Positions 3,213-47,415 of a stretch of DNA of 64,000 nt are shown here, in pieces. The notes beneath the pieces are model-generated. The model did no database searches. It worked only from the letters and a program-made list of their open reading frames with translations, and had not been told where the DNA came from. Every line of letters begins with the position of its first letter. The first letter of the stretch is position 1. Source of the stretch: a virus; IMG/VR virus record IMGVR_UViG_3300025106_000001, positions 39,798-103,797 of that record. One strand, 5' to 3'. Position numbers and translations under genes: made by a program.

Positions 3213-3220
3213 ATAATATA
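3213..3220 (-). promoter_or_regulatory. TATATTAT-class promoter for 2528-3178
   Basis: The octamer TATATTAT on the minus strand lies 35 bases before the start codon, inside TTTATATATTATATATTGG. It is one of the early-type motifs described in the findings. Confidence 0.5.
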
Positions 3221-3233
3221 TAAACAATTTGCA

Positions 3234-3584
3234 TTATAGGTTTCTGTTTTTCAACTCTACCTTATCCAGCAATTTAGCCAATAATAGCTTAGCGTTAAGA
3301 TACTCGCCTATATTGGCAACAAATGTGTGACCTGAATTTGATATAGTCATTATTAAATCGCATTTATTAGGGTCATTATTAACCTCATAATTAGCGACAA
3401 TAAATATTGATTCACTAATTGTGCTGACTATAAATTTCTCTTTTAGTTTTCGAGCTGTTGCAGTCTCACCTTTTCCATCTATCTTAACGACGATGTCATG
3501 GTCTTTAACTGTCATTAAATCTGAATTCTTTAGAAGGTAATCTACCTTCTCATTAAATAATTTTACTAATTCATTACTTTCCAT
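3234..3584 (-). CDS. Hypothetical protein, 116 aa
   Basis: Begins MESNELVKLFNEKV; the ATG two codons upstream is too close to GGAG to be used. Predominantly helical N-terminus followed by alternating beta-like segments. It lies 13 bases after the previous gene (3598-3837) and probably shares its mRNA. No family recognised. Confidence 0.65.
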   Translation of the reverse strand: MESNELVKLFNEKVDYLLKNSDLMTVKDHDIVVKIDGKGETATARKLKEKFIVSTISESIFIVANYEVNNDPNKCDLIMTISNSGHTFVANIGEYLNAKLLLAKLLDKVELKNRNL

Positions 3585-3597
3585 TGTCATCTCTCCT

Positions 3598-3837
3598 TTA
3601 CTTAGTATATATTCGTATTAATTCTACCATATGGTCACCCTTTCTTAAGCTATCTGAAGCTACAAGTGACCTATAAGCTCTTTTAAAGTTTTCATCATCA
3701 TCTCCTTCTACCATGTCAAAAGTAACATCAATAGGCACTTTGACAATTTCTGAATTCTCATACCGAGTTATAAGAAACTCTGCTGTGCAGAGCTTCTCAT
3801 CATCATTCTGGTTTCTCTTCTTGTTGAACCCCAGCAT
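3598..3837 (-). CDS. Hypothetical protein, 79 aa
   Basis: The start at 3837 (MLGFNKKRN) is chosen because GGAGG lies eight bases before it; the longer frame to 3897 has no ribosome site. The gene overlaps the last 35 bases of the upstream gene, so translation is likely coupled. A basic N-terminus is followed by a compact domain; function unknown. Confidence 0.65.
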   Translation of the reverse strand: MLGFNKKRNQNDDEKLCTAEFLITRYENSEIVKVPIDVTFDMVEGDDDENFKRAYRSLVASDSLRKGDHMVELIRIYTK

Positions 3838-4588
3838 CTTTATTACCTCCATTATTAAAGTTGAAAAACTCTTCATCTGAGTCCTTCTTAAATACACTAG
3901 ATTTAACCTCCTCTTTTTGTTCTACAAATAACGGATGTTGCTTCTTAGGAGTCTTAGCCTGACTCTTGCTAACAACTTCTTTCAACTCTATCTTCTCATC
4001 CTTAATACATGACATATAATAATTTAATAGAAGCTGAGAGTAAACAAATATATTGGTTTGTTTTAATGTATAATATAATGACTCGAACGCATCTATTGGT
4101 AGTTGTACAAAGTTGTCTGTTTTATTAAAGAATATAACTACACCTTCATATGATACTTCGTTCTCATCAAATATCTTAGCAGGTTTCAGAATTAATTTCT
4201 GATTATTACCTATATTAAATAGCTTTACTGTATGCTCTTGAATCTTGTCCGAAAATATAACAACCTCTCCGCTTTTATTAACTGCAAACACTCCGCCGTT
4301 ATATATTGACTCAATCATAGTCTCAAAGCCTTTTATTATGTGATAGATATTCTTTTGATCTATCAGTATGGACTTATCTCTAGCCCACTCCCCGTCATTC
4401 ATCTCTAATGTGAGAAATGACTGTAAGTCTAACTTGAGGTATTTATTACCGTCAAAGTTAAATAAATGATGGAAGTTTTCTTTACGCCCTTCCTTCTCTT
4501 GTAATAATTTTATGTGTATTTTTAGTGTTAATTCTTTAATAGGTTGAATTAACGTTCTGCTTATTTTGTCTATATCTATGTCAAGCAT
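3803..4588 (-). CDS. Hypothetical protein with acidic disordered tail
   Basis: 261 aa. Residues 1-200 look like a folded alpha/beta domain. From about 205 the sequence turns low-complexity and charged (SQAKTPKKQHP, then KKDSDEEFFNFNNGG) and ends in EEKPE. A folded core with a flexible acidic tail recalls phage single-stranded DNA-binding proteins, but no OB-fold signature could be recognised, so this is only a hint. Preceded by GGTGGTGATGCG. Located between a hairpin terminator and the two small genes downstream. Confidence 0.65.
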   Translation of the reverse strand: MLDIDIDKISRTLIQPIKELTLKIHIKLLQEKEGRKENFHHLFNFDGNKYLKLDLQSFLTLEMNDGEWARDKSILIDQKNIYHIIKGFETMIESIYNGGVFAVNKSGEVVIFSDKIQEHTVKLFNIGNNQKLILKPAKIFDENEVSYEGVVIFFNKTDNFVQLPIDAFESLYYTLKQTNIFVYSQLLLNYYMSCIKDEKIELKEVVSKSQAKTPKKQHPLFVEQKEEVKSSVFKKDSDEEFFNFNNGGNKDAGVQQEEKPE

Positions 4589-4610
4589 CGCATCACCACC
4601 ACTTTAAAAA

Positions 4611-4649
4611 AATATGAAACTTATCTCTCTTAAAGATAAGTTTCATATT
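4611..4649 (-). terminator. Intrinsic terminator after 4673-4915
   Basis: A stem of about 15 pairs (AATATGAAACTTATCT and its complement) is followed by seven Ts on the minus strand. The next gene starts only about 20 bases beyond, with no TATATTAT between, so the terminator may be leaky. Confidence 0.75.
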
Positions 4650-4672
4650 AAATTATTTTTTATATTTTATCA

Positions 4673-4915
4673 TTATAGGAACATTGGTCGATACCAAGCT
4701 TTAGGTAAATTAGCATCTATCCATTCAAGAGCATGATGCTTAACAGCAATCCATGCGACATTAATCATAGGTGTTGGATAATCAGTTTCTTCATCGTCCC
4801 ATCTACCTTTCATTTCAACCTCTTCCTTCTCAACTTTATCCATTACCTCTTTAGCCTGTGATTCAAACATTCCGTGCTCAAATAACATTTGTTCCATTTT
4901 TTCCCTGATTGTCAT
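4673..4915 (-). CDS. Small hypothetical phage protein, 80 aa
   Basis: Helical N-terminal half (MTIREKMEQMLFEHGMFESQ) and a tryptophan-rich C-terminal half (NVAWIAVKHHALEWID then PKAWYRP). The start overlaps the upstream stop by four bases (ATGA), typical of translational coupling. No known function. Confidence 0.7.
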   Translation of the reverse strand: MTIREKMEQMLFEHGMFESQAKEVMDKVEKEEVEMKGRWDDEETDYPTPMINVAWIAVKHHALEWIDANLPKAWYRPMFL

Positions 4916-5208
4916 ATTTCTTTACCCTCTTTCACTAATTTATTTTGTTCTTCATATACCATAGTCTCAAATGAATCCAGTATATGAGTTTCTTCAATCT
5001 TATAGAAACCTATATGCTCTAATTTCTTAGGTAATTCATCAATTAGATTTAGCCTTATTACAGTACCGAATCTTTTGCCGTGGCTATTTCTAACAATTAC
5101 TTTCATTAAATACGGTTCAAACCTCCCCTCACCTTTCGAAGGAAAACCTGATGGTTTAGACTCTTCTTTTTTCCTAAAGAATGGCATTACAAAAGGTACA
5201 TAAACCAT
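4912..5208 (-). CDS. Hypothetical protein, 98 aa
   Basis: Starts inside a TAATG overlap with the upstream stop, with AAAGGAGG ten bases before the ATG. Basic, glycine-rich N-terminus, then a beta-type segment. Part of the tightly packed minus-strand operon 4673-6493. Confidence 0.7.
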   Translation of the reverse strand: MVYVPFVMPFFRKKEESKPSGFPSKGEGRFEPYLMKVIVRNSHGKRFGTVIRLNLIDELPKKLEHIGFYKIEETHILDSFETMVYEEQNKLVKEGKEI

Positions 5209-6515: not shown

Positions 6516-6543
6516 AGATATAATAGGTTTCCCTATTATATCT
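6516..6543 (-). terminator. Hairpin terminator after RNA polymerase beta N-half
   Basis: A twelve-pair stem (AGATATAATAGG) with a GAAA loop on the minus strand, followed by TATTATTTT. The stop codon of the polymerase gene lies within the stem. Confidence 0.65.
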
Positions 6544-8206
6544 CATCATCCCCATCATTGATATTAATTTTAATAAAGTATTTAGTAAAGTCTTCCTTTT
6601 CAATCTCTGTGATTGTTATACCTCTATTGACCTTAGCGAATCTTTCATGGACATTGAAGTAGTCTGTTATGTTTTCATATCCAACATCAATGAAATACTT
6701 ATCTGAAGTCTCTCTCTTACGGTCAATAATATCTTTCTCAAAATTGTATTTAAACTCTTCTGGTTCATTCTTTCCGTCAAAATACAACCCATCTGTTTCA
6801 CAAAATGGTGTTATAACACCAGATGTTCCTGGGTCTGAATTACCGCAAACGTTTATGTCAATCCTTCCTATATAAGAAGGATGGATTCCCCTATACTTTA
6901 TGGAGATATTATTATCATTCTTATTACCTAAACTATTAGGTCCCTTTAAAGTATATCTGAACTTACTAAAGAAGTCCATGTCGTTAATCTTGTCATCATA
7001 ACGTAGCAATCCAGACTTATATAGGTGTTGCATAATGATATCGCCAGGGAATTTGAATATCTCTTTTATCTTGTCTATAGATATCTTATTTCCCAAACCT
7101 ATTATACGATTAAGTCTATCACTAAATGCTTTAGTTAATAGTGATGCAATATATTCATTACATCTTAGTCGTTTATTTTCAAGAGCCAGATTATCTTTCT
7201 TTCTTAGCTCATTGAAGTTCTGAATCATCCATCTTACGATTGCATAGATACTTCTCTTGTTCTCATCATGTAACTTGAGAATATCCTTTGTGGTTTCATC
7301 CAGCAGTCTATCAAAATAAGTTAAACTGCTTAAACCTTTCTCATAATAATTATAAGCATTTGTAGCATTCATGCTACCTATTTTCTCTATCCAGTACGTT
7401 TTGTTCTCAAGATTATCAAATGACAATCTATTCGAGCAAATGTTTAGAATCATGAATATTATACTCTGCACGTATTGATACTTCAAAAAGAAGTAACGAT
7501 TTACTTCTAGCACCATTTTGCTATTGATCGAAAAATAGATGTTGTTTTCCTTGTCTACGATATCTTCTCTGAATTTAATTATTTGACTCACTGAGAAGTA
7601 ATCTAAGGTTTTCTTAACACCTATCTTTGCGAAATAAAACAGTAAAATGTCTACTTCTTTTCTGAATACATATATCACATACGCTGGAGCAGTATAGCTA
7701 TTTCCTTCTGTATCTGAATAGGTTTTCTGATTTCTCTTTTCCGTTATAGGCATAAGAGATTTCAGAGTTAGGTTTTGTCGTGTTGTGTATGTCGACGCAT
7801 CGACAAGCTGATATAATAAGAAATACTTCTTTCCCTTTATTGTATAGTATCCATTTTCATCTGGAACTGGGACTAGAAGTTTCTTTGTTAATTGGAATGT
7901 TTCATCCTTACATTTGAGCATGAATTTTAACTTCAGCTCCCCGTATCTACTATCTTGTAGATACATATACTTCGTATCAACCTTTTTCTTACTCTTTTTA
8001 CGAGTTGTCATGTAATCATTGAGGTCTATCTTAGTTTCATCATCAGTATAATCATAACCTAGAAACTTGATATTCTTTAGAACCTCAAGGGATTTACAAC
8101 TATTCACGAGATACTGGATTAAATCATCATCGTATTCTCGATTCATGAGTCCGAAATTTATTCGGCTCTCGTTAGGGTTTTTATACGATTTTATAAAGTC
8201 TTTCAT
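6536..8206 (-). CDS. Phage RNA polymerase beta subunit, N-terminal half
   Basis: 556 aa. Two stretches align by eye with bacterial RpoB. Around residue 118 NGYYTIKGKKYFLLYQL matches the 'GtFiInGaerviVsQl' region. Near residues 430-475 KGPNSLG and then YRGIHPSYIGRIDI match the 'lGPGGL...vRDVHPTHYGRvcPIETPEG' rifampicin-pocket region. The protein stops shortly after this, and the C-terminal half is a separate gene at 14382-16676, the split seen in giant phages such as phiKZ and AR9. A GGGGG ribosome site before the ATG at 8206 decides the start. No beta-prime gene is seen in the window. Transcription starts from a TATATTAT motif inside an inverted repeat. Confidence 0.85.
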   Translation of the reverse strand: MKDFIKSYKNPNESRINFGLMNREYDDDLIQYLVNSCKSLEVLKNIKFLGYDYTDDETKIDLNDYMTTRKKSKKKVDTKYMYLQDSRYGELKLKFMLKCKDETFQLTKKLLVPVPDENGYYTIKGKKYFLLYQLVDASTYTTRQNLTLKSLMPITEKRNQKTYSDTEGNSYTAPAYVIYVFRKEVDILLFYFAKIGVKKTLDYFSVSQIIKFREDIVDKENNIYFSINSKMVLEVNRYFFLKYQYVQSIIFMILNICSNRLSFDNLENKTYWIEKIGSMNATNAYNYYEKGLSSLTYFDRLLDETTKDILKLHDENKRSIYAIVRWMIQNFNELRKKDNLALENKRLRCNEYIASLLTKAFSDRLNRIIGLGNKISIDKIKEIFKFPGDIIMQHLYKSGLLRYDDKINDMDFFSKFRYTLKGPNSLGNKNDNNISIKYRGIHPSYIGRIDINVCGNSDPGTSGVITPFCETDGLYFDGKNEPEEFKYNFEKDIIDRKRETSDKYFIDVGYENITDYFNVHERFAKVNRGITITEIEKEDFTKYFIKININDGDDEI

Positions 8207-8254: not shown

Positions 8255-8311
8255 AAACTGATTTTATTCACACCTCCTTACGAATATATAATATATGAAT
8301 AAAATCAGTTT
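8255..8311 (-). repeat. 16-bp inverted repeat enclosing promoter and Shine-Dalgarno
   Basis: Arms AAACTGATTTTATTCA (8255-8270) and its exact complement (8296-8311) flank a 25-base loop. On the minus strand the loop holds TATATTAT and then AAGGAGG. A TTTTATTTTATATT run follows, so the RNA form also looks like the terminator of the gene at 8317-8571. Confidence 0.75.
8288..8295 (-). promoter_or_regulatory. TATATTAT-class promoter for RNA polymerase beta N-half
   Basis: Octamer on the minus strand, 81 bases before the chosen start, giving an untranslated leader of some 70 bases that begins inside the inverted repeat loop. Confidence 0.5.
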
Positions 8312-9544: not shown

Positions 9545-9552
9545 ATAATATA
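9545..9552 (-). promoter_or_regulatory. TATATTAT promoter fused to ribosome site
   Basis: TATATTATTAGGAGG: the octamer ends two bases before AGGAGG and 17 bases before the ATG. The transcript would have an extremely short leader, or the true start point lies further upstream. Confidence 0.5.
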
Positions 9553-11726: not shown

Positions 11727-11734
11727 ATAATATA
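11727..11734 (-). promoter_or_regulatory. TATATTAT-class promoter for DNA ligase
   Basis: Octamer 34 bases before the ligase start, directly continuing from the T-rich side of the terminator at 11736-11766. Confidence 0.5.
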
Positions 11735-12429: not shown

Positions 12430-12441
12430 TATTACTTTGTT
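12430..12441 (-). promoter_or_regulatory. AACA-N6-TA late-class promoter for 11765-12403
   Basis: AACAAAGTAATA on the minus strand, 27 bases before the start codon and directly adjoining a TATATTAT motif. Confidence 0.4.
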
Positions 12442-12449
12442 ATAATATA
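12442..12449 (-). promoter_or_regulatory. TATATTAT-class promoter for 11765-12403
   Basis: Octamer 39 bases before the start. With the AACA motif beside it, the gene may be expressed throughout infection. Confidence 0.5.
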
Positions 12450-14290: not shown

Positions 14291-14298
14291 ATAATATA
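14291..14298 (-). promoter_or_regulatory. TATATTAT-class promoter for 13669-14226
   Basis: Octamer within AATATATATTATTATTGTA on the minus strand, about 65 bases before the start. The downstream ATTGTA resembles the extension shared by the motifs at 21711, 25269 and 35835. Confidence 0.5.
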
Positions 14299-14381: not shown

Positions 14382-16676
14382 TTACATTTTTACATCTATT
14401 ACATACTTAGACTTTCTTAAATTGACATCATTGACTCTTTTATCGACAGCTTCCTCATATTCAGCCTTAGAGCCAACGAAATAGTTCTTTTCTCGGAAGT
14501 CAGTTTCAACGTCCATCCTAGTTTTTCTATCTTCAAACTCTCTCCTAGTGCATATAAAGGTTTTATCCCCATAATTATATTCCTCCATACTACCTAGGAA
14601 TATATCTATGAAATACTTATCCTCTTCAAAGTCTATTTTCAGACCCATTGCTTTAAGATAAGCTTGAAGAATCTCAACATTTCTATTCTTAAACTCTGGT
14701 GAATATTTAAATTCCTTTACTTCCTTAATATTTGTTGTTAATCTTTCTCCTAGGTCTCGTCTTCCTATAACTGATGACCTATAGAATAAGTGGATCTTAG
14801 CTATTTCTTCGGTTTCAACACCAATTGCAGTATTGAGATTTTCATCAATACCTATTCTTATAGGTGTTCTTGAATAAAGCTCCTGATGATTTTTAGCCTT
14901 ATTAGATTTCTCTGGAACGCCTCTCTTACTAAGAGAACCTGTTGCTCTTACCGAGAAACCTTTCTTTGATGTTTGTTTTAATTTTATAACGTACATATCC
15001 CCGACTATTAACTGTTTCAACATCTTTATCTTTCTACCAAACCTATTGACATAAACATCATATGGTTTAATCCATGTGAATTCTTTATAAATGTCGTTAA
15101 GTCTATCGAATAGACTCCTGTCTTCCCATAGTGGCGGGATATGAACAAATATTCCTCTTTCTATAATATCTTCAAAGAAATCTTCTTTGTCGACTTTAGC
15201 CAATCTCTTATAGTAATCATGCAGACTATCAGCCTGCTTGTCATTGAAGTAATTAATTATCTTAAATAATAATTTTTCCTTCTCTTTCAAATCATTCATA
15301 ATCTTCAGTCTTTCCCTTACTCTGTTACAAATAAAGTTAATTGACTGCTCCATTAACTGGAATGAATTTGTTCTGTTTATAACGCCGAGAGTATTGAATA
15401 TGATATCAACTCTTTCCCCAGTTTCCAAGAACGGCATTTCCTCGTCTGGAAGTATTTCAGATACTACTCCCTTATTTCCATATCGTCCTGTAATCTTCTG
15501 TCCCACTGAAAGTTCAACATCTCTCTCGATTAAGAATTCAATAATCATATTACTGAATACTGAATTATCTTCTTCTTTCCATTTATACTTTTCATCGAGA
15601 ATGTTCTTAGCTTTCTTATAGTAGAAGTTAACTTCACTGGAATACTTTGAGCCAGAGTCTATTATCTTTTTACATCTCTCATAAACCTTGATGTAGAATT
15701 CTCTCTGCATTTTAATATATTTTAATAATTGCCTATTAAAGCTATTGTCTTCTATCTCTTCTATTGGTTTATTTGAATAGATATTTATGTCTACAATTCT
15801 ACCTTCACAGAATGATAGGCTGTCTGACATAAAATTGATTTTTCTTAGATTTGATTTCTTTACATCATATAAAAGCTGATTGTTGTGTATTCTTCGTTTA
15901 ACACAAACTATCTTATCCTTTATAAACTCATTAATATCTGGGAAGCACTTGTACTCTTCGTTTGTCCCATAATAATTACAGAATATATCGTTATCATTTA
16001 GGGACACTTTAACAGTTTCTACTTCCTTAGATTTCATAGACTTTGCAAATGACTTAGAACACTTTATTGCGTCCTCTATGGTGTCATTATCTAGCAGATA
16101 CATGAACTTGACATTCTTACCATAACAGTAATTCATGTCCTCATCATATGACGGTGTCTTGTATAACACCTCTCCTGCTCTTACTTCATCTCCTGGTTCC
16201 TTAGCATCCATTACTTCATTATTGTAAGGGAACCCGAACTTTTCTGTTAAGTCTTCAACTATACGTTTCTGAATAACATCATATTTATCATTCTCTTCAT
16301 CATATGTGAATAGAAGATATAGATGATTGTCCAATACTCCGTTGCCGAACTTAGCTATTTTATCAACTACCTTTAAATCTGTTTTCGCCCTATAATATCC
16401 AGTTGAGTATTTACCAACTATATTTTCATAGTTGGTAAACACCTTTGGAAACTCAGGGTTCAACAGGTTAACGAACTGCCTCAAATGTGATGTAAACATT
16501 ATATTTCTTGAAGCACTTATATATCCAGGGTTCGTTAGTAATGTCATACCGAATATATCATCTTTAAAATGGTACTTTTCCTCTTTTTCACATAAGGTCT
16601 CTTTCAACCTTATCGTTGTCGTATTAATATAGTCTTTTTCTTTTCTTAATTGTGGTTTCGGTTGAACATTTGACAT
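14382..16676 (-). CDS. Phage RNA polymerase beta subunit, C-terminal half
   Basis: 764 aa from the ATG at 16676 (GGAGACAGGCAA). Segments line up with RpoB in order. RNIMFTSHLRQFVNLLNPEFP near residue 60 matches 'ANRALMGsNMQRQAVPLL.PEaP'. GDEVRAGEVLYKT (about 163-175) follows. KITGRYGNKGVVSEILPDEE (about 394-413) matches the catalytic 'GDKMAGRHGNKGVvSkI.P.EDMP'. DIIFNTLGVINRTN matches 'DIVLNPLGVPSRMN'. IKLKQTSKKGFSVRATGSLS (about 580) matches the 'lkLnHlVddKihARsTG' clamp region. A final NVEILQAYLKAMGLKIDFE matches the RpoB end. With the N-half at 6536-8206 it rebuilds one beta subunit cut near the rifampicin region. It acts with beta-prime pieces not seen here. Confidence 0.88.
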   Translation of the reverse strand: MSNVQPKPQLRKEKDYINTTTIRLKETLCEKEEKYHFKDDIFGMTLLTNPGYISASRNIMFTSHLRQFVNLLNPEFPKVFTNYENIVGKYSTGYYRAKTDLKVVDKIAKFGNGVLDNHLYLLFTYDEENDKYDVIQKRIVEDLTEKFGFPYNNEVMDAKEPGDEVRAGEVLYKTPSYDEDMNYCYGKNVKFMYLLDNDTIEDAIKCSKSFAKSMKSKEVETVKVSLNDNDIFCNYYGTNEEYKCFPDINEFIKDKIVCVKRRIHNNQLLYDVKKSNLRKINFMSDSLSFCEGRIVDINIYSNKPIEEIEDNSFNRQLLKYIKMQREFYIKVYERCKKIIDSGSKYSSEVNFYYKKAKNILDEKYKWKEEDNSVFSNMIIEFLIERDVELSVGQKITGRYGNKGVVSEILPDEEMPFLETGERVDIIFNTLGVINRTNSFQLMEQSINFICNRVRERLKIMNDLKEKEKLLFKIINYFNDKQADSLHDYYKRLAKVDKEDFFEDIIERGIFVHIPPLWEDRSLFDRLNDIYKEFTWIKPYDVYVNRFGRKIKMLKQLIVGDMYVIKLKQTSKKGFSVRATGSLSKRGVPEKSNKAKNHQELYSRTPIRIGIDENLNTAIGVETEEIAKIHLFYRSSVIGRRDLGERLTTNIKEVKEFKYSPEFKNRNVEILQAYLKAMGLKIDFEEDKYFIDIFLGSMEEYNYGDKTFICTRREFEDRKTRMDVETDFREKNYFVGSKAEYEEAVDKRVNDVNLRKSKYVIDVKM

Positions 16677-16722: not shown

Positions 16723-16730
16723 ATAATATA
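16723..16730 (-). promoter_or_regulatory. TATATTAT-class promoter for RNA polymerase beta C-half
   Basis: Octamer 46 bases before the start codon, in TTATATATTATTAG, just past the recombinase stop codon. Confidence 0.5.
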
Positions 16731-19022: not shown

Positions 19023-19034
19023 TAAATATTTGTT
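19023..19034 (-). promoter_or_regulatory. AACA-N6-TA late-class promoter for 18109-18993
   Basis: AACAAATATTTA on the minus strand, 30 bases before the start codon. No TATATTAT is nearby. Confidence 0.45.
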
Positions 19035-20012: not shown

Positions 20013-20020
20013 ATAATATA
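20013..20020 (-). promoter_or_regulatory. TATATTAT promoter fused to ribosome site
   Basis: Preceded by a run of As; the surrounding 29 bases are the same as upstream of the gene at 34261-34740. Confidence 0.55.
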
Positions 20021-20051
20021 ATTATTTTTTTGTTATTGATAAATTATTTTA

Positions 20052-21232: not shown

Positions 21233-21240
21233 ATAATATA
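21233..21240 (-). promoter_or_regulatory. TATATTAT-class promoter for tubulin-like gene
   Basis: Octamer in AAATATATATTATC on the minus strand, 51 bases before the start codon. Confidence 0.5.
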
Positions 21241-21632: not shown

Positions 21633-21710
21633 TATAATCACCTCACAATTATTTTCGATTATTTCTATGTTCCTATAATATTAAAATCGTAAATTAAAAC
21701 ATGATGAATA

Positions 21711-21718
21711 TATATTAT
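21711..21718 (+). promoter_or_regulatory. TATATTAT-class promoter for 21814-22401
   Basis: Octamer followed by TATTGTGTACATA. The leader of about 85 bases contains ACATAC...GTATGT and CTAG...CTAG inverted repeats, so it may be structured. Confidence 0.5.
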
Positions 21719-21813
21719 TATTGTGTACATACGTAGATAATATATTTGTATGTTCCGCTAGTAAATATAGATGCTAGTGAAAAATATTTTGATTCTGTGG
21801 GAGGAATTAAATC

Positions 21814-22783: not shown

Positions 22784-23503
22784 TTATTTTAGTGATTTCT
22801 TAACCAATAATCCTTGAGTAACAAGGTCTGACTTAATACCCATACCTATTAGATGTACATCGAGGGCATTTAAAGTAGTCTTATTTTCAACATGGTTAGT
22901 TAATTGGTCTAGGGAAACATATCCCTTTTGTGCTATTGAAGCGTACATTTCATTCTTCATTACTAAGTCGTCAGCTCTTGGACCCATAAACTCTCTTAAT
23001 GTCTCATTAGCATTAAGCGTAACTAATGCGAAGTTTTCAGCATCAGAGTCTCTTGCATTCTTATCCTTTCCAACAACCTGTCCTGTTAATGCTGAACGGG
23101 AAGCTATTTCAGTAGAAGTAGTGTTCTTCTTACTGAGCATCTGCTGAACCCTCTTAACATGCACATATCCCACAGGTACTTCATATTTAGTAATGACTGG
23201 TTTATCTGTATTTTTATTAACAAATGGCATAACTACTTTCTCAAATAATGGAACCCCAAGTATCTTAGCTGCTTGCTCAACATTTTCAATCTTAAAATCT
23301 CTCTCATAATCCACAACATCAAGAGTTAAATACTGATTTTCATCCTTAAAGAAATTTCTAAAAAATGAATCGAACTGTGAATCCGACATTTCCCCGAAGA
23401 AATCCTTGTATTTATTACTATTTGTTTTGGAAGGGTCGAGAGCATCGAAAACGGAATATATTAAGGCTTCCATTTGTTTTCTAGTTTGTTTTGTTATAGC
23501 CAT
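22784..23503 (-). CDS. RNA polymerase beta C-terminal-like fragment
   Basis: 239 aa. Residues from about 120 can be aligned by eye with the RpoB C-terminus. VPVGYVHVKRVQQML matches 'VtVGYmYmLKLhHLv'. DAENFALVTLNANETLREFM with RADD matches 'GEMEVWALeAyGAayTLqEmLtvKSDD'. LNALDVHLIGMGIKSDL matches the terminal 'FnVLlkEirsLGinieL'. The gene at 14382-16676 already holds the same regions, so this is a second, paralogous copy, not the missing tail of that subunit. Its AACA-N6-TA late promoter suggests a protein made late, such as part of a virion-packaged polymerase. A structural protein that has borrowed the fold is the alternative. Confidence 0.6.
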   Translation of the reverse strand: MAITKQTRKQMEALIYSVFDALDPSKTNSNKYKDFFGEMSDSQFDSFFRNFFKDENQYLTLDVVDYERDFKIENVEQAAKILGVPLFEKVVMPFVNKNTDKPVITKYEVPVGYVHVKRVQQMLSKKNTTSTEIASRSALTGQVVGKDKNARDSDAENFALVTLNANETLREFMGPRADDLVMKNEMYASIAQKGYVSLDQLTNHVENKTTLNALDVHLIGMGIKSDLVTQGLLVKKSLK

Positions 23504-23532: not shown

Positions 23533-23544
23533 TATTTAATTGTT
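23533..23544 (-). promoter_or_regulatory. AACA-N6-TA late-class promoter for 22784-23503
   Basis: AACAATTAAATA on the minus strand, 30 bases before the start. The same twelve bases stand upstream of the gene at 25447-26607. Confidence 0.5.
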
Positions 23545-24381: not shown

Positions 24382-24389
24382 TATATTAT
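24382..24389 (+). promoter_or_regulatory. TATATTAT-class promoter for small membrane protein
   Basis: Octamer 34 bases before the ATG at 24424. A second AT-rich AATAATATATTAGGGG abuts the ribosome site. Confidence 0.45.
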
Positions 24390-24619: not shown

Positions 24620-24627
24620 TATATTAT
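24620..24627 (+). promoter_or_regulatory. TATATTAT-class promoter for DUF4116 protein
   Basis: Octamer 38 bases before the ATG, in AAGTATATATTATTAATA; AATATAATTAGGAGG then leads into the start. Confidence 0.5.
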
Positions 24628-26633: not shown

Positions 26634-26645
26634 TATTTAATTGTT
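26634..26645 (-). promoter_or_regulatory. AACA-N6-TA late-class promoter (leftward)
   Basis: AACAATTAAATA on the minus strand, 27 bases before the start at 26607. Back to back with the rightward motif at 26650. Confidence 0.5.
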
Positions 26646-26649: not shown

Positions 26650-26661
26650 AACAATAAATTA
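26650..26661 (+). promoter_or_regulatory. AACA-N6-TA late-class promoter (rightward)
   Basis: AACAATAAATTA, four bases from the leftward copy; the two form an imperfect palindrome and drive divergent genes. Confidence 0.5.
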
Positions 26662-28446: not shown

Positions 28447-28458
28447 TACTAATTTGTT
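28447..28458 (-). promoter_or_regulatory. AACA-N6-TA late-class promoter for 27903-28421
   Basis: AACAAATTAGTA on the minus strand, 26 bases before the start; preceded by the short palindrome CCAATTAATTGG. Confidence 0.45.
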
Positions 28459-31604: not shown

Positions 31605-31612
31605 ATAATATA
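31605..31612 (-). promoter_or_regulatory. TATATTAT-class promoter for topoisomerase A
   Basis: Octamer immediately after the T-run of the topoisomerase B terminator, 33 bases before the start. Confidence 0.5.
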
Positions 31613-34756: not shown

Positions 34757-34764
34757 ATAATATA
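34757..34764 (-). promoter_or_regulatory. TATATTAT promoter fused to ribosome site
   Basis: Inside AATAATTATATTATTAGG; the stretch of 29 bases around it matches the leader of 19133-19996. Confidence 0.55.
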
Positions 34765-34802: not shown

Positions 34803-34810
34803 ATAATATA
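34803..34810 (-). promoter_or_regulatory. Second TATATTAT promoter for 34261-34740
   Basis: Another octamer 39 bases further upstream (AGTTATATATTATTATG). Confidence 0.45.
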
Positions 34811-34877
34811 TAACTGAAATATCAGTTAAATTTCTTAATTAACTGTTATCCCAATTATAATTTATAATTTATTTGGT

Positions 34878-35744: not shown

Positions 35745-35756
35745 TATAAATTTGTT
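35745..35756 (-). promoter_or_regulatory. AACA-N6-TA late-class promoter for 35566-35727
   Basis: AACAAATTTATA on the minus strand, 18 bases before the start and 14 bases downstream of a TATATTAT. Confidence 0.4.
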
Positions 35757-35769: not shown

Positions 35770-35777
35770 ATAATATA
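35770..35777 (-). promoter_or_regulatory. TATATTAT-class promoter for 35566-35727
   Basis: Octamer in GATTATATATTATATG, 43 bases before the start. Confidence 0.5.
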
Positions 35778-35842: not shown

Positions 35843-35847
35843 AATTG

Positions 35848-37171: not shown

Positions 37172-37179
37172 TATATTAT
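37172..37179 (+). promoter_or_regulatory. TATATTAT-class promoter for 37247-37852
   Basis: TTGTATATTATTTAAATG, 67 bases before the start of the plus-strand cluster. Confidence 0.4.
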
Positions 37180-39103: not shown

Positions 39104-39118
39104 TTCTATTGGAAAAAT

Positions 39119-39149: not shown

Positions 39150-39181
39150 ATGTTCCGACAAAGGTTTTAGGGGGTATGAGT

Positions 39182-39472: not shown

Positions 39473-39503
39473 GGGTAGCATAAGCTACCCCGATTTTATT
39501 TTT
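39473..39503 (+). terminator. Intrinsic terminator
   Basis: GGGTAGC-ATAA-GCTACCC followed by CGATTTTATTTTTTT. It also faces the end of the convergent operon. Confidence 0.8.
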
Positions 39504-39508
39504 TTATA

Positions 39509-39736: not shown

Positions 39737-39752
39737 ATTCAGTATACCCCCA

Positions 39753-40079: not shown

Positions 40080-40097
40080 TTTATAACCCCCATCACT

Positions 40098-43579: not shown

Positions 43580-43599
43580 TTTCACCCCTCCTCGGTTAT

Positions 43600-43607
43600 A
43601 TAATATA
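43600..43607 (-). promoter_or_regulatory. TATATTAT-class promoter for nuclease-helicase operon
   Basis: GAGTATATATTATATAACC, 21 bases before the start. Confidence 0.55.
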
Positions 43608-43687
43608 TACTCTTAATTTGTTTTATATTAAAGTTTGTCAAAAAATATTTTAATAATCAGAGACTATTTTTTCTTACATACTATGGA

Positions 43688-43699
43688 AACATACTAATA
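43688..43699 (+). promoter_or_regulatory. AACA-N6-TA late-class promoter for 43730-44680
   Basis: AACATACTAATA, 31 bases before the start; opens the 20-kb plus-strand late block. Confidence 0.5.
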
Positions 43700-43729
43700 A
43701 TATTAAAAAGTGTGAAAGGATGTGGTAAT

Positions 43730-44680
43730 ATGTCATTCAAAACGCTTCAAGATACCTTCATATATAGGAATCTTAATCAAAGCGGGGCAGTTACAAACAA
43801 TATAGCCAAAATATTACAAAATGGAACTGTTCTCAAGAAGAACAACCTTGAAGAGGCATTTATGATAATAAACAAGAACTTTAAATTCCCATTAAAGTAT
43901 AAAGTTCTTAATGAAGTTGAAACTGGGGATATCATGCTTATGTATTCACCAGATGGGGCTAAAATACCTTCATGTATGCCATTCTTCTTAACTAAAAATG
44001 CTGCTGATAAAGTAGTAGCTGTTGTTGTAGTTGATGTGTATGGTACAATGAATAAAGAAAACGGCAATGTTAACATTGACCCTAAGAAACTTTATACAAT
44101 GATTGAATCTGCATATCTTGCTAAGCTCTGCTATCATTACAGTAAGCAAATAGCAACTCGTAATGTTATCATTACAAACGGTTCTGCGGTGTACTCAAAC
44201 ATGTTCGTTAGAGTATTAAATAAGAAATATGCATTAAATGTTGATAAGAGCAAAATGCATAAGGTACTATTCCTTGCAAGCAAGTTCTATCTTATCAATA
44301 TGCTGGGTTTAACCGATAGTGAAATGGTTACTAACTATGCACTTAAAAATTGTGTAAATGGTAATCCTTTCGTTTTAAAAGAGATTAATGATATGATGGT
44401 TCCAGAAGATTTCACTGACTTCTCAACATTTGTTAAGGCTCTAACAAAAGAGGGTATGAATCTAGGACTTAAAGATTTAACTGTAAGGAGCTACATGGAG
44501 GCATATATTCATATGTATGATGCAGCAGCATTACTGGCATTAGAATCATTTCCCTATTTTCTTTACAACGTTTTGTCAGTTACTAATGGGGCGTATATAA
44601 ACAATCAATATGTCCTTGAGGATATTGTAGACGTTAATGGGGCTAAGATTTATGCCGACCTTATGACTCTCGATAAATAA
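43730..44680 (+). CDS. Probable virion protein, 316 aa
   Basis: ATG at 43730 preceded by AAAGGATGTGG. Mixed alpha/beta: a strand AADKVVAVVVVDVYGTM, helical YTMIESAYLAKLCYHY, then helical C-terminus. No family recognised. Late promoter and place at the head of the late block make a structural or assembly function likely. Confidence 0.65.
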   Translation: MSFKTLQDTFIYRNLNQSGAVTNNIAKILQNGTVLKKNNLEEAFMIINKNFKFPLKYKVLNEVETGDIMLMYSPDGAKIPSCMPFFLTKNAADKVVAVVVVDVYGTMNKENGNVNIDPKKLYTMIESAYLAKLCYHYSKQIATRNVIITNGSAVYSNMFVRVLNKKYALNVDKSKMHKVLFLASKFYLINMLGLTDSEMVTNYALKNCVNGNPFVLKEINDMMVPEDFTDFSTFVKALTKEGMNLGLKDLTVRSYMEAYIHMYDAAALLALESFPYFLYNVLSVTNGAYINNQYVLEDIVDVNGAKIYADLMTLDK

Positions 44681-44693
44681 GGAGGGATAGAAC

Positions 44694-45182
44694 ATGAGTA
44701 TTGAAATTATGAAAGATAATCTGAGGAATATTGATTCTAACAATATTATCAGGTTAATTTCTGATGTTGTGTTATACAATATCGACAAAGTGCGTGATTT
44801 TAAGGAAAACGAAATATACTATCGTAATGATGTCATATATAGAAATGACGCTGCTGATGGTAAGTATAAACTTCACGTATGTAAAAAAGAATCAGTTACT
44901 GGTGTTTTCAACCCTGATGATTGGGATATTTATACTTTCAGATTAGAAAGAAATTCTGTCATATTAGAGTCAGAATTCAAATCTCCTGGTGATGGAACTA
45001 CTGTATGTCCTATTAATCAACCATTGTATGATGTTGATAAGGATTCATTAGTTATATATCACAGTGTTAGGGGTAGGCTCTTTAGGACTAGAGATTGGAC
45101 TTTAAACTCTGATAGATTAACAATAACATTAAAGTTTGGGTTAAATACTGGTGAGTTGATTTTATTTGAAGTCCACAAATAA
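44694..45182 (+). CDS. Tail-associated protein with CBM5/12-like segment, 162 aa
   Basis: Residues 38-78 (FKENEIYYRNDVIYR, then YKLHVCKKE and FNPDDWDIY) follow the chitin-binding CBM5/12 pattern 'Y..Gd.V.y.g..Y.c...h.g..P....W' often found in phage tail and fibre proteins. The second half is beta-rich (FRTRDWTLNSDRLTITLKF). Probably binds cell-surface glycan as a tail component. Thirteen bases after the previous gene. Confidence 0.65.
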   Translation: MSIEIMKDNLRNIDSNNIIRLISDVVLYNIDKVRDFKENEIYYRNDVIYRNDAADGKYKLHVCKKESVTGVFNPDDWDIYTFRLERNSVILESEFKSPGDGTTVCPINQPLYDVDKDSLVIYHSVRGRLFRTRDWTLNSDRLTITLKFGLNTGELILFEVHK

Positions 45183-45190
45183 GAAAATAA

Positions 45191-45231
45191 GGTTAAATGG
45201 TGTTAATCACCATTTAACTTTTATTTTTTTA
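45191..45231 (+). terminator. Intrinsic terminator
   Basis: Thirteen-position stem AGGTTAAATGGTG then a T-rich run that leads into the next late promoter. Confidence 0.8.
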
Positions 45232-45243
45232 ACATTCTATTAA
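45232..45243 (+). promoter_or_regulatory. AACA-N6-TA late-class promoter for first amidase
   Basis: AACATTCTATTA, 30 bases before the start. Confidence 0.5.
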
Positions 45244-45273
45244 GAATCTATAACAAAGAAGGAGTGACAACCC

Positions 45274-46428
45274 ATGCTAAAAGTATGGTTAGACCCTGGT
45301 CATGGTGGCTCTGATCCTGGTGCCGTTTCTGGTAACTTAATTGAAAAACACATGAATCTCACAACAGCAATTGCTTGTAAGGTAGAACTTGAGAGACATG
45401 GTGTTATTGTTGGAATGTCCCGAACAACTGACATTTATCTCGATCTTGATGAAAGATGTGCTTTGTCAAATGCTTGGGGACCTGATTTCTTTGTGTCCAT
45501 TCACTACAATGCTGGTGGTGGGGATGGGGTGGAAGCCATCCATAGTATCTTCCACGGAATGACAGATGATATTTTAGCATCACGTATCGTTAACAGAATC
45601 GTGTCCGAATTAGGACAAAATACTAGACCAAAGCCAACCTACACAAGATTAAATTCAAGAGGAACTGACTATTATGGCGTTATTAGAGGTAACAATGCAC
45701 CTCCTGTAATTGTTGAAGGAGCATTTGTTGATAGTGCCGATAGTAAAATAGTGGATACTGTTGAAGAACAACAAAGATTTGGGATTGCTATAGCTCATGG
45801 CATATTGGATGCCGCTGGAATGCCTACTCAAAATGGTGCACCAGTAATTCCTGTACAGAAGCCAAAAGCAAACCCTGGAATAACTTGCCTCAGAAGAGGA
45901 GATAAGAGTACAACAGTTATGGAAATGCAATTAAAGCTCGTTAAACTTGGATATCAACTATCTGCTGATGGAGATTTTGGTCCAAGAACAGAAGCTGCTG
46001 TTAAAGCATTCCAATTAAAGTATCTTGGTGCAGGAGAAGATGATGGTGTTGCAGGTCCTAAGACATTAGGAAAGCTTAATGAAGCTATTGCAGAACTAAA
46101 TAAACCTGTTCCTGGTGGCTCTAGTAAAGTTAGAGCATACCAAGAGTTAACAAGAGCTCTTGGAATAACAGACAAGAATGGAAATCTTCTTGATGTTGAT
46201 GGTAGTGTTGGTGCTTTAACAAAGAGTACCTATGCTAAGATGCCAGTTCTTAGAATTGGTAGTAGGGGAGAGGCTGTTAGATGGGTTCAAACTGCTGTTG
46301 GGGCAGATCCAGATGGATGTTTCGGACCGCTTACAGCAGGAAAAATTAAAGAATATCAATGGAATCATCACATTGCTGATGATAGCGTTGTAGGACCAAA
46401 TACCTACAGAGTATTGGTAGAAGGTTAA
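45274..46428 (+). CDS. Endolysin: N-acetylmuramoyl-L-alanine amidase with two PG-binding domains
   Basis: 384 aa. Amidase_3 domain 1-185 with zinc ligands His10 (LDPGHGG), Glu24 and His77 (SIHYNAGGG) and catalytic Glu148 (VIVEGAF). Two peptidoglycan-binding domains follow, about 206-270 (DGDFGPRTEAAVKAFQ) and 305-384 (GSRGEAVRWVQ). It cuts the bond between muramic acid and the stem peptide. No signal peptide, so release needs a holin not identified here. Its own late promoter and terminators make it a single-gene unit. A tail lysin is the alternative role. Confidence 0.9.
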   Translation: MLKVWLDPGHGGSDPGAVSGNLIEKHMNLTTAIACKVELERHGVIVGMSRTTDIYLDLDERCALSNAWGPDFFVSIHYNAGGGDGVEAIHSIFHGMTDDILASRIVNRIVSELGQNTRPKPTYTRLNSRGTDYYGVIRGNNAPPVIVEGAFVDSADSKIVDTVEEQQRFGIAIAHGILDAAGMPTQNGAPVIPVQKPKANPGITCLRRGDKSTTVMEMQLKLVKLGYQLSADGDFGPRTEAAVKAFQLKYLGAGEDDGVAGPKTLGKLNEAIAELNKPVPGGSSKVRAYQELTRALGITDKNGNLLDVDGSVGALTKSTYAKMPVLRIGSRGEAVRWVQTAVGADPDGCFGPLTAGKIKEYQWNHHIADDSVVGPNTYRVLVEG

Positions 46429-46433
46429 AGGTG

Positions 46434-46470
46434 AGGAATCGTGTTTTATATCACGATTCCTTATTTTTTA
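46434..46470 (+). terminator. Intrinsic terminator after first amidase
   Basis: Stem GGAATCGTG with an eight-base loop, then TTATTTTTTATG. Confidence 0.8.
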
Positions 46471-46490
46471 TGTATTTTTTTCATATCACA

Positions 46491-46502
46491 AACATTAAAT
46501 TA
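46491..46502 (+). promoter_or_regulatory. AACA-N6-TA late-class promoter for second amidase
   Basis: AACATTAAATTA, 23 bases before the start. Confidence 0.5.
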
Positions 46503-46525
46503 ATAAAAAGAAAGGGGCTGATAAT

Positions 46526-47314
46526 ATGCCAAAGGTATGGTTAGACGCTGGACATGGTGGAAATGAACCTGGTGCTGTAGCAAATGGTCTTGTTGAAAAG
46601 AACATGAATCTTGTTACAACACTAAAATGTAAAGAGGTACTTGTTCGGCATGGGTTAACAGTGGGATTAACACGAAGCGATGATAGGTATGTTGGACTTA
46701 CAGAAAGATGCGACATGGCTAATAAATGGGGAGCTGACTATTTTGTTTCAATCCATTACAATGCTGGTGGTGGAGACGGAGCTGAGGCTATCCATAGCAT
46801 TTTCTACGGAAAAGGCACTGATTTAGCTAAAAAAGTTGTTGAAAGAGTTCATACTGTAACAGGTCAAAACTTTAGACCTAACCCAACATTCTCAAAAAAA
46901 AGCACAAATGGGAAAACAGATTACTACGGTGTAATCAGACAAACTGATATGACTGCAATTATCGTTGAAGGAGCCTTCATCGACAATGATGTTGACAAAC
47001 AGATAGTGGATACTATCCCAGAACAACAGAAGATGGGTATTGCGATTGCTTATGGTATCCTTGACCACTTAGGAATTGCTATATTACCTGAAGCAGCAGT
47101 TCCATCAAATGAAGTATATGGAGTAACAACTGCTAAAATGCTTAATGTGAGATCAGGTAGGGGCACAAATTACCCTGTTATCTGTGAATTAGAAATGAAT
47201 ACTAGAGTTAAATTAATGAACCTCCAAAATGGTTGGTGGTCAATTCCTGTGCCTACAACAGTTATTTCGTCAGGTATAGGATTTGTGAGTGCAACTTATA
47301 TACGAAAGTTATAA
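46526..47314 (+). CDS. Endolysin-type amidase with SH3 domain
   Basis: 262 aa. The Amidase_3 domain (1-185; LDAGHGG, VSIHYNAGGG, IIVEGAFID) is closely similar to that of the gene before it, so the pair arose by duplication. The C-terminus (about 200-262) is instead a bacterial SH3 domain (AKMLNVRSGRGTNYPVI, then NGWWSIPV). Ribosome site AAAGGGGCTG. Having two amidases with different wall-binding ends suggests one for lysis and one for the virion, or two host-wall specificities. Confidence 0.9.
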   Translation: MPKVWLDAGHGGNEPGAVANGLVEKNMNLVTTLKCKEVLVRHGLTVGLTRSDDRYVGLTERCDMANKWGADYFVSIHYNAGGGDGAEAIHSIFYGKGTDLAKKVVERVHTVTGQNFRPNPTFSKKSTNGKTDYYGVIRQTDMTAIIVEGAFIDNDVDKQIVDTIPEQQKMGIAIAYGILDHLGIAILPEAAVPSNEVYGVTTAKMLNVRSGRGTNYPVICELEMNTRVKLMNLQNGWWSIPVPTTVISSGIGFVSATYIRKL

Positions 47315-47325
47315 AATGCTAAATA

Positions 47326-47365
47326 TGGGATGTAAGCAATTGCTTTTAAGCTTGCTTACATCCCA
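47326..47365 (+). terminator. Probable terminator after second amidase
   Basis: Fourteen-pair stem TGGGATGTAAGCAA, strong but without a clear T-tract (CATTTGCCCTTT). Confidence 0.55.
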
Positions 47366-47403
47366 CATTTGCCCTTTAACTCGGAATAATTTTGGTTATT
47401 AAA

Positions 47404-47415
47404 AACAATTTAATA
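47404..47415 (+). promoter_or_regulatory. AACA-N6-TA late-class promoter of fibre block
   Basis: AACAATTTAATA, 29 bases before the start of the first fibre gene. No further promoter or terminator was seen between the fibre genes, so the 15-kb run is probably one operon. Confidence 0.5.

Follow-up and report, generated by a model that had tools for sequence, protein, structure and literature searches.

A probable two-motif promoter code of the AR9 type in a giant phage that carries thymidylate-making genes

Introduction

Do two short motifs upstream of its genes sort the genes of a giant bacterial virus by function, and which polymerases would read them? The question is raised by a stretch of 64,000 nucleotides (positions 39,798 to 103,797 of IMG/VR record IMGVR_UViG_3300025106_000001; hereafter the window), which is part of the circular 218-kb genome (G001) of a relative of Bacillus phage AR9. 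This phage (the window phage) falls in a clade, including the sister genome G002, that is sister to the uracil-DNA phages; its beta-C RNA polymerase subunit is 37% identical to that of AR9. A relative occurs in a Herbinix MAG. A preliminary description, based on the letters of the window, had assigned an octamer, TATATTAT, to the polymerase halves, ligase, exonuclease, tubulin, topoisomerase A, a nuclease operon, DUF4116 and several small genes, and AACA-N6-TA to the amidases, the fibre block, the metallopeptidase and other probable virion genes, and had likened them to the early and late promoters of AR9. This agrees with the accessible part of the AR9 paper, which gives AAATATATATTAT-(6N)-G(+1) as the early and AACA-(6N)-TA/G as the late promoter (PMC5312081).

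Methods

Genes were called with a purpose-written script instead of a standard caller, and the starts 18993 and 28421 were taken from the preliminary description and set by hand (the script chose 19017 and 28427). Upstream regions shorter than 20 bases were dropped from the contig shuffle and orientation counts, and those of 36 bases or fewer from the dyad scans and next-base counts; the dyad scan left out G003, G004 and G005. For the sorting by function, 52 of 70 reciprocal-best AR9 pairs were labelled by hand from the AR9 annotation, the other 18 (hypothetical proteins, proteases and lysis genes) being set aside. The last bases of several genomes were omitted, so that 250,000 of 251,042 bases were used for AR9, 260,000 of 262,391 for phiR1-37, 260,000 of 267,055 for S6, 220,000 of 223,580 for LPJP1, 240,000 of 247,146 for G007 and 260,000 of 263,786 for G009. 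Bases 70,001-168,903 of T4 (98,903 of 168,903) served as a control. The beta-C tree took in three phiKZ-type or distant sequences, phiKZ itself being absent.

Results

Both motifs are concentrated upstream of genes

The window matches that lie between genes, within 150 bases upstream of a start on the same strand, are listed below for the late motif, with the distance to the gene start.

115..126, minus strand: late motif, 40 bases before the gene with its start at window base 74 (beyond the span of the preliminary description)
12430..12441, minus strand: late motif, 26 bases before the exonuclease gene (early and late)
19023..19034, minus strand: late motif, 29 bases before the gene starting at 18993
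20023..20034, minus strand: late motif, 26 bases before gene 19133-19996, at the start of a leader cassette
21660..21671, minus strand: late motif, 27 bases before gene 21465-21632
21743..21754, minus strand: doubtful AACA-N6-TA match, overlapping an octamer, 110 bases from gene 21465-21632
23533..23544, minus strand: late motif, 29 bases before the virion RNA polymerase subunit gene
26634..26645, minus strand: late motif, 26 bases before gene 25447-26607
26650..26661, plus strand: late motif, 36 bases before the M48-type metallopeptidase gene
28447..28458, minus strand: late motif, 25 bases before the gene starting at 28421
34836..34847, minus strand: doubtful AACA-N6-TA match, 95 bases before gene 34261-34740
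35745..35756, minus strand: late motif, 17 bases before gene 35566-35727 (early and late)
43688..43699, plus strand: late motif, 30 bases before virion structural protein gene 43730-44680
45231..45242, plus strand: late motif, 31 bases before amidase gene 45274-46428
46491..46502, plus strand: late motif, 23 bases before amidase gene 46526-47314
47404..47415, plus strand: late motif, 29 bases before the fibre block starting at 47445

AACA-N6-TA is not over-represented in bulk (57 copies in the window, 76 expected), and the evidence therefore lies in position and orientation, as the preliminary description had argued. Sixteen of the 57 are the upstream sites listed, 4 are elsewhere between genes and 37 are in coding DNA. 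On the 104-kb contig of the window, the motif occurs in 27 of 79 upstream regions, about six times as often as in shuffles of these regions (mean 4.2, maximum 13; 0 of 500 as high). Sense and antisense copies number 9 and 1 in the co-directional gaps of the window and 45 and 4 on the whole genome, and the reversed pattern, used as an orientation control, is unbiased (9:7). Among matches 8-70 bases from a start codon in G001, the median distance is 29 bases. The preliminary description had placed the late motif 18-31 bases upstream of its genes, which holds for both amidases, the fibre block and the five other probable virion genes named (18993, 23503, 26607, 28421 and 43730), but not for the metallopeptidase.

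The corresponding octamers follow, with the base predicted at +1.

3213..3220, minus strand: early motif, 34 bases before gene 2528-3178; +1 G
8288..8295, minus strand: early motif, 81 bases before the nvRNAP beta-N gene; +1 G
9545..9552, minus strand: octamer in a leader cassette, adjoining TAGGAGG; probably no early promoter
11727..11734, minus strand: early motif, 33 bases before the NAD-dependent DNA ligase gene; +1 G
12442..12449, minus strand: early motif, 38 bases before the exonuclease gene, adjoining the late motif; +1 G
14291..14298, minus strand: early motif, 64 bases before gene 13669-14226; +1 A
16723..16730, minus strand: early motif, 46 bases before the nvRNAP beta-C gene; +1 G
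20013..20020, minus strand: octamer in a leader cassette, adjoining TAGGAGG; probably no early promoter
21233..21240, minus strand: early motif, 50 bases before the phage tubulin gene; +1 G
21711..21718, plus strand: early motif, 95 bases before gene 21814-22401; +1 G
21737..21744, minus strand: early motif, 104 bases before gene 21465-21632; +1 A
24382..24389, plus strand: early motif, 34 bases before gene 24424-24567; +1 A
24620..24627, plus strand: early motif, 38 bases before the DUF4116 gene; +1 A
31605..31612, minus strand: early motif, 32 bases before the topoisomerase II subunit A gene; +1 A
34757..34764, minus strand: octamer in a leader cassette, adjoining TAGGAGG; probably no early promoter
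34803..34810, minus strand: early motif, 62 bases before gene 34261-34740; +1 G
35770..35777, minus strand: early motif, 42 bases before gene 35566-35727; +1 G
37172..37179, plus strand: early motif, 67 bases before gene 37247-37852; +1 G
43600..43607, minus strand: early motif, 20 bases before the exonuclease and SbcD-like nuclease operon; +1 G, 14-base leader

The window holds 32 copies of TATATTAT, with 16.2 expected from shuffles; 19 are these upstream sites, which include all eight named genes or operons before which the octamer had been reported, 5 are elsewhere between genes and 8 are in coding DNA, chance matches arising easily in AT-rich DNA. Upstream of genes the octamer is 5-7 times commoner than in shuffles (25 of 79 contig regions; mean 3.7, maximum 9; 0 of 500 as high), and its sense to antisense ratio is 15:3 in the co-directional gaps of the window and 34:7 on the whole genome.

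If the motifs merely reflected the AT-rich composition of intergenic DNA and had no promoter function, octamers in coding DNA and away from starts, and the lack of a bulk excess of AACA-N6-TA, would be expected. Against this stand the dinucleotide shuffles of the same upstream regions, which never reached the observed counts of either motif, the orientation with the gene, a preferred +1 G outside the octamer, and the T4 control, in which AACA-N6-TA shows no excess (2 of 55 regions, 2.2 expected) and the top 8-mer is TATAAATA, T4's late promoter. We give composition almost no credence as an explanation.

The early motif extends to a preferred base at the predicted start

Of 38 octamers that lie more than 20 bases from a start codon, 24 are followed by G at the seventh position (background 0.16); the AR9 figure is 27 of 34. 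The extended bases TATATATTAT and the +1 G emerged unasked, outside the searched letters, and with the enriched octamer, its flanking TA and the +1 G, the AR9-type early pattern is present in the window phage, although the AAA upstream of it is weaker than in AR9.

Since TATATTAT resembles TATAAT, it could instead be the -10 box of a host sigma-70 promoter, with early genes read by the host polymerase. However, sigma-70-type sites are not in excess (99 against 99.6 expected in bases 28000-47999), the octamer comes with the +1 G and extended AT block known from AR9, and the phage has its own vRNAP genes. In AR9, early transcription is independent of protein synthesis and is ascribed to the vRNAP, according to the accessible part of that paper (PMC5312081). 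We therefore regard a host-read early motif as very unlikely.

Not every upstream octamer is a good promoter candidate. Three of the 19 (9545, 20013 and 34757, each at 16 bases) directly adjoin TAGGAGG, so that an AR9-type start would lie inside the ribosome-binding site; these are probably not early promoters. Promoter function is doubtful for the 4 of 19 window octamers that lie 20 bases or less from the start. The octamer of the nuclease operon would leave a leader of 14 bases, and the minimum given for AR9 in the accessible text is 26 bases (PMC5312081).

The late core is conserved and its next base is lineage-specific

Among about 53,000 gapped patterns, AACA-N6-TA ranked first on the whole genomes G001, G002 and AR9; on the contig of the window alone it came second, after a pattern that overlaps it. 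Elsewhere it ranked first in G009, second in phiR1-37, LPJP1 and G006, fourth in G007 and fifth in G008. The AR9-type late pattern AACA-N6-TA/G, with the last base as predicted start, is thus found in the window phage, the TG variant being rare (4 of 79 regions, 1.4 expected).

The base that follows differs between lineages. The window phage has AACA-N6-TAA in 50 of 146 regions (3.7 expected; TAC 1, TAG 3, TAT 5), whereas AR9 is mixed (TAT 28, TAA 19 and TAG 13 of 178 regions). The Yersinia phage phiR1-37 resembles the window phage in having the octamer (33 of 181 regions, 7.5 expected) and the AACA-N6-TA core before genes, but has uracil DNA and uses TAG instead of TAA (46 of 181 regions, 1.6 expected). 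In Staphylococcus phage S6 the dyad alone looks weak (28 of 147 regions, 9.8 expected; rank 30) and is almost entirely TAT (27, 3.5 expected). Fusobacterium phage JD-Fnp6 has the dyad in 23 of 97 regions (5.2 expected; rank 34) and TAG in 16 (0.4 expected); the homologue search found no convincing gp226 homologue in this phage, and its beta-C sequence forms a long, unplaced branch in a tree for which the program warned of long branches meeting. The core is therefore kept with TAA in the window clade, TAG in phiR1-37 and JD-Fnp6, TAT in S6 and LPJP1, and a mixture in AR9. We propose AACA-N6-TAG as a late promoter of phiR1-37; the accessible parts of its transcriptome paper mention no further conserved sequence at the new start sites (PMC4848604), and those of the AR9 paper say that no late promoter was found in this phage (PMC5312081).

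The motifs separate virion from replication-type genes

Counted over the whole genome with all octamers, the late motif stands alone before 15 of the 24 virion genes and before none of the 28 replication-type genes, and an early motif, own or inherited, precedes 2 of 24 and 23 of 28, respectively. With octamers 20 bases or less from the start excluded, the figures are 15 of 24 against 1 of 28 for late only (P=6.5e-06) and 2 of 24 against 19 of 28 for early (P=1.3e-05). Among the replication-type genes, 18 of 28 lack an exact match of their own to either motif, as do 8 of the 24 virion genes. Motif class is also kept between orthologues of AR9 and the window phage (70 pairs; late P=0.0027, early P=0.041).

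The sorting claimed in the preliminary description thus extends genome-wide, but some genes carry both motifs and form a third class, to which 3 of 28 replication-type genes belong: the exonuclease in the window and, outside it, the genes of nvRNAP beta'-C and of the DNA polymerase exonuclease. A GroEL-like gene joined this class only through an octamer 15 bases from its start and dropped out once close octamers were excluded. For the replication-type gene of topoisomerase subunit B, the sole match of its own is a relaxed late one, AACA-N6-TG, and one baseplate-wedge homologue is classed as early by inheritance across a 452-base gap.

The genes of both phage RNA polymerases fall into different motif classes

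Going beyond the preliminary description, the genes of the non-virion polymerase (nvRNAP) and those of the virion polymerase (vRNAP) are also told apart by motif class. The following of these genes lie in the window.

6536..8206, minus strand: nvRNAP beta-N-like subunit (AR9 RefSeq gp104; gp105 in the structure paper)
14382..16676, minus strand: nvRNAP beta-C-like subunit (AR9 RefSeq gp088)
22784..23503, minus strand: virion RNA polymerase subunit (homologue of AR9 RefSeq gp077)

The nvRNAP has the AR9-type make-up of four split beta/beta' subunits and a gp226-like subunit, whose pair in the window phage matches chain 7s01_A (E 1e-23). An early motif of its own stands 41-81 bases before each of four of the five subunit genes, and the remaining one lies downstream of a 55-aa gene that has such a motif. 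For the vRNAP, the late motif precedes 3 of 4 genes, or all four if one start codon is moved 54 bases upstream.

Discussion

The code of the window phage is the scheme published for AR9: like AR9/PBS1, as far as the accessible text describes them (PMC5312081), the phage has TATATATTAT-N6-G early, AACA-N6-TA late, a class with both motifs and two split multisubunit RNA polymerases. We are confident that the code represents the promoters of two phage-encoded multisubunit polymerases acting in relay; the assignment of each motif to its polymerase, the positions of the starts and the order in time would follow by analogy with AR9. The vRNAP, carried in the virion, would start at the early motif early in infection and make, among other products, the nvRNAP subunits. 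The nvRNAP with its sigma-like subunit would then start at AACA-N6-TA(A) and make virion proteins, lysis enzymes and the vRNAP of the next generation, and genes needed throughout infection would carry both promoters. The relay appears less clean in phiR1-37, in which g261, the match of the beta-C subunit, is called late in the accessible part of the transcriptome paper (PMC4848604). Judging from partial texts, the phiKZ nvRNAP is similar in its split beta and beta' subunits and sigma-like fifth subunit, but differs in its TATG late promoter, which overlaps the start site (PMC7618050, PMC7598289); in the beta-C tree, the three phiKZ-type or distant sequences fall outside the AR9 group.

The window phage differs from AR9 in its TAA late start, its phage thymidylate synthase and kinase, and the pocket residues of its sigma-like subunit. 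The AR9 polymerase rejects thymine at two promoter positions, and avoiding host DNA is the reason proposed in the accessible text (PMC7598289). A uracil-DNA phage would be expected to lack phage thymidylate synthesis and to remove dTMP or dTTP; the window phage, in contrast, encodes ThyA (above the curated cut-off) and a thymidylate kinase on the same genome, and other clade members have dUTPase or ThyX. Thymidylate synthase, dUTPase or thymidylate kinase is found in 7 of 9 clade records and in none of five AR9-type phages. In the 2.1bis helix of the sigma-like subunit, the V206 and aromatic 210 of AR9 are replaced by Q206 and Q210 in the window phage. V206 alone does not divide the clade from the AR9 group, being kept in 3 of 8 distinct clade sequences, including one from a ThyX and one from a dUTPase record. 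A structure prediction of the sigma-like subunit from four clade sequences was discarded (mean pLDDT 38.6).

One might instead suppose that the window phage also has uracil DNA and reads its late motif as AR9 does, the pocket changes being neutral drift. The retention of V206 in part of the clade would fit, as would the presence of a dCMP/dCTP-type deaminase and of a protein that weakly matches AR9's deoxyribonucleotidase and has no Pfam match. The thymidylate-making genes and the change of the aromatic residue 210 to Q in all 8 distinct clade sequences speak against this reading, which we consider unlikely. A search of G001 with AR9 Ugi found no Ugi-like protein among the matches listed (best E 0.25), and an 84-aa gene beside beta-N, of the length and place of AR9 Ugi, was dropped as a candidate as it was not picked out among them; UDG was found in 0 of 15 records.

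Judged from its genes, the lineage of the window phage probably has thymine, not uracil, in its DNA. The thymidylate genes and the pocket changes argue against a need for uracil at template positions -11/-10, in letters that do not themselves show the template base. The nvRNAP would work like the AR9 enzyme, but because of Q206 and Q210 we do not file it as a uracil-reading member. We lean towards a thymine-DNA sister clade whose polymerase would read AACA-N6-TA with template thymine owing to the replacement of the methyl-excluding residues of AR9 (V206 and its neighbours D204 and aromatic 210), and towards a code older than, or independent of, uracil DNA. Uracil-specific reading would then have been added later as a lock on a code already in place, or the window clade would have lost such a lock.

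Taken together, new here are the thymidylate-making genes, the changed pocket and the retained late motif with its lineage-specific next base in a sister clade of the uracil-DNA phages, so that uracil DNA may not be a requirement of the late code. This clade, which shares the promoter words, encodes enzymes for making thymidylate and has another base pocket, offers a natural comparison: it makes testable which came first, uracil reading or the promoter code, and by what means a version that reads thymine avoids the host genome.

Results and discussion

The window corresponds to bases 39798-103797 of a virus record of 103,797 bases (hereafter the contig). The 218,088-base record IMGVR_UViG_3300009430_000004 (G001) derives from the same phage as the contig, the whole of which is covered by two matches of 73,123 and 30,705 bases with at least 99.98% identity. 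The order of the two matches is permuted and they overlap by 31 bases, the pattern expected from a circular genome. Since G001 is the same phage, the motifs could therefore be studied genome-wide as well. Of its 217 called genes, 70 have reciprocal best matches in Bacillus phage AR9. In a tree of the polymerase subunit beta-C, five AR9-type phages (AR9, BpSp, LPJP1, S6 and phiR1-37) form one clade (support 95/99), while six records of the window phage's group (records G001-G009, hereafter the clade) form a separate one (100/99); JD-Fnp6 is unplaced beside both. A 213-kb contig in a Herbinix MAG (JAQUYQ010000001.1) encodes a sigma-like subunit that is 51% identical, a weak hint at Clostridia as hosts.

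In the preliminary description, the octamer TATATTAT and AACA-N6-TA were likened to the early and late promoters of AR9 and proposed to sort genes by function, with position and orientation as the evidence. Across the window, the octamer occurs at twice its frequency in shuffles and AACA-N6-TA as a whole is not over-represented. It is the position that is informative, with the octamer present in 25 and AACA-N6-TA in 27 of the 79 upstream regions of the contig, as compared to 3.7 and 4.2 in shuffles. Orientation speaks for the motifs as well: in co-directional gaps of G001, in which an antisense motif points to no gene, we found 45 sense and 4 antisense copies of the late motif and 34 and 7 of the octamer; the T4 counts were 2 sense and 5 antisense for the late motif and 2 and 1 for the octamer. 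In an unbiased scan upstream of genes for patterns of a 4-mer, a gap of 0-12 and a 2-mer, AACA-N6-TA ranked first in G001 (58/146 regions, 9.5 expected), its sister G002 (50/144, 11.9 expected) and AR9 (59/178, 10.7 expected), and second in the contig alone, behind the overlapping AACA-N7-AA (26/72, 4.5 expected). The top T4 8-mer was TATAAATA, the late promoter of T4, indicating that the method finds a real promoter. Three intergenic octamers on the + strand of the window (25269-25276, 35835-35842 and 39057-39064) lie more than 150 bases from any gene start on their strand; the inferred start is G at two of them, and antisense or small RNAs may start at these sites.

The proposed sorting by function was borne out. 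Function labels were taken from the AR9 annotation for 52 of the 70 orthologue pairs, giving 24 virion genes and 28 replication, repair, nucleotide, chaperone or non-virion RNA polymerase (nvRNAP) genes. The late motif alone precedes 15/24 virion and 0/28 replication-type genes (P=2.9e-07), whereas an early motif, either the gene's own or that of the closest promoter upstream on the same strand, is assigned to 2/24 and 23/28, respectively (P=6e-08; own motif only, 1/24 and 10/28). Under a stricter rule that ignores octamers no more than 20 bases from the start, these counts become 15/24 and 1/28 (P=6.5e-06), 2/24 and 19/28 (P=1.3e-05) and, for own early motifs, 1/24 and 9/28 (P=0.014). Across the 70 pairs, the motif class is kept between AR9 and the window phage (late, P=0.0027; early, P=0.041). 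Both motifs are found at 9/217 G001 and 5/288 AR9 genes under the stricter rule, the looser rule giving 11 and 6; the "continuously expressed" genes of AR9 are described as carrying both (PMC5312081). A tubulin/FtsZ-type protein (Pfam Tubulin, PHROG tubulin PhuZ; window 20052-21182) has an early motif.

At early sites, the bases outside the search letters also match the AR9 pattern. TA is common before the octamer and, among sites separated from the start codon by more than 20 bases, the 7th base 3' of it is a G at 24/38 G001, 29/43 G002 and 27/34 AR9 sites. For the 16 upstream octamers in the window that do not abut a ribosome site, the inferred start is G in 11 and A in 5 cases. The late motif, searched at 8-70 bases from the start codon, has a median distance of 29 bases in G001 and AR9 alike. 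A repeated leader, TATATTATTAGGAGG, links the octamer to the ribosome-binding site, in two cases directly after a late motif. It has four exact copies in G001 and none in G002, G009, AR9 or phiR1-37, and looks like a copied cassette of promoter and ribosome site rather than an early promoter.

Probable leader cassettes
Window 9545-9552 and adjoining ribosome site: octamer abutting the ribosome-binding site
Window 20013-20034 and adjoining ribosome site: octamer and late motif
Window 34757-34764 and adjoining ribosome site: octamer abutting the ribosome-binding site
G001 genes 56, 165, 182 and 190: TATATTATTAGGAGG leader

Early motifs precede the genes for nvRNAP beta-N, beta-C, beta'-C (which also has a late motif) and the homologue of the sigma-like subunit gp226, and the beta'-N gene follows a 55-aa gene bearing an early motif. 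Late motifs precede the virion RNA polymerase (vRNAP) genes for beta'-N, beta-C and a gp077-like subunit. vRNAP beta-N has none at its called start; an in-frame ATG lies 54 bases upstream, with AACATTCTTATA 33 bases before that ATG. With nvRNAP genes early and vRNAP genes late, each polymerase would therefore make the other: if the motifs are assigned to polymerases as in AR9, the late polymerase would be a product of the early one and would in turn make the early polymerase for the next virion. In phiR1-37 this relay is less clean, as g261, the match of nvRNAP beta-C, is classed as late (PMC4848604). In G003, G006, G007, G008 and G009, the gene calls split many polymerase subunit genes into two or three pieces; in the AR9 record, several are given as joined from pieces.

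PBS1/2, AR9, phiR1-37 and S6 are on record as phages with uracil DNA (PMC8150378), and we presume the same for BpSp and LPJP1. PBS1 and phiR1-37 are reported to destroy dTMP or dTTP (PMC12697855), whereas the clade encodes thymidylate-making genes. G001 encodes ThyA (Pfam E 4e-73; NCBIfam score of 352.9 bits, with the curated cut-off at 327) as well as thymidylate kinase, close to genes for ribonucleotide reductase and a deaminase. Counting matches above cut-off, at least one of ThyA, ThyX, dUTPase and thymidylate kinase is present in 7/9 clade records, the exceptions being G003 and G006 (75 and 118 kb), but none in the five AR9-type phages. The contig has none of the four, the G001 copies lying on the part absent from it. 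Judging from these genes, the clade would make thymidylate. Two points count against a thymine reading, namely that G001 encodes the deaminase together with a weak match to the AR9 deoxyribonucleotidase, and that relatives of ThyA can produce other bases.

In AR9, late promoter recognition takes place on the template strand and requires uracil at -11 and -10; gp226 V206 blocks the methyl group of a T at -10, with Y210 stacking on the -9 G (PMC9209446, PMC7598289). The gp226 homologue of the window phage, located on G001 beyond the contig, has Q at both positions according to two alignments from different programs (T at 206 in G002). Seven AR9-type gp226 sequences combine D204 and V206 with Y or F210. 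In eight distinct clade sequences, drawn from 15 loci, position 204 is N or H, position 210 is Q, and position 206 is Q, T, L, V, V, V, T and R. In the beta-N pocket, R363 is conserved in 8/8 compared sequences, and K375 is K in the window phage and N in G002 and G003. We infer that the changed gp226 residues may allow thymine to be read.

AACA-N6-TA is also enriched in G006 (35/85 regions, 7.2 expected), G007 (53/172, 15.1), G008 (32/113, 7.6) and G009 (57/169, 13.2). The base that follows it is lineage-specific, as though every polymerase used an initiator of its own: A in G001 (50/146 regions, 3.7 expected; TAC, TAG and TAT in 1, 3 and 5) and G002 (43, 4.4 expected), G in phiR1-37 (46/181, 1.6) and JD-Fnp6 (16/97, 0.4), T in LPJP1 (37/147, 5.0) and S6 (27/147, 3.5), and mixed in the 178 regions of AR9 (TAT 28, TAA 19, TAG 13; expected 4.2, 3.5, 1.5). 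AACA-N6-TAG is a candidate late promoter of phiR1-37 (NC_016163.1, loci L076-L088). Upstream regions also hold other strongly enriched sequences: ATATAGTC and GAGAACTG in G006, AACGGCAT in G007, ATATAGTC and TATAGTCT in G008 and AGCAGTTC in AR9; the 8-mer GATATGGG is likewise strongly enriched in phiR1-37 (14, 0.1 expected). Among titles, abstract beginnings and the cited passages in the open literature searched, we found no paper on a phiR1-37 late motif or on thymine-DNA relatives with an AACA-N6-TA promoter. The most economical interpretation is that the late core predates the split between the two lineages, and that the reading of uracil arose later or was lost in the clade.
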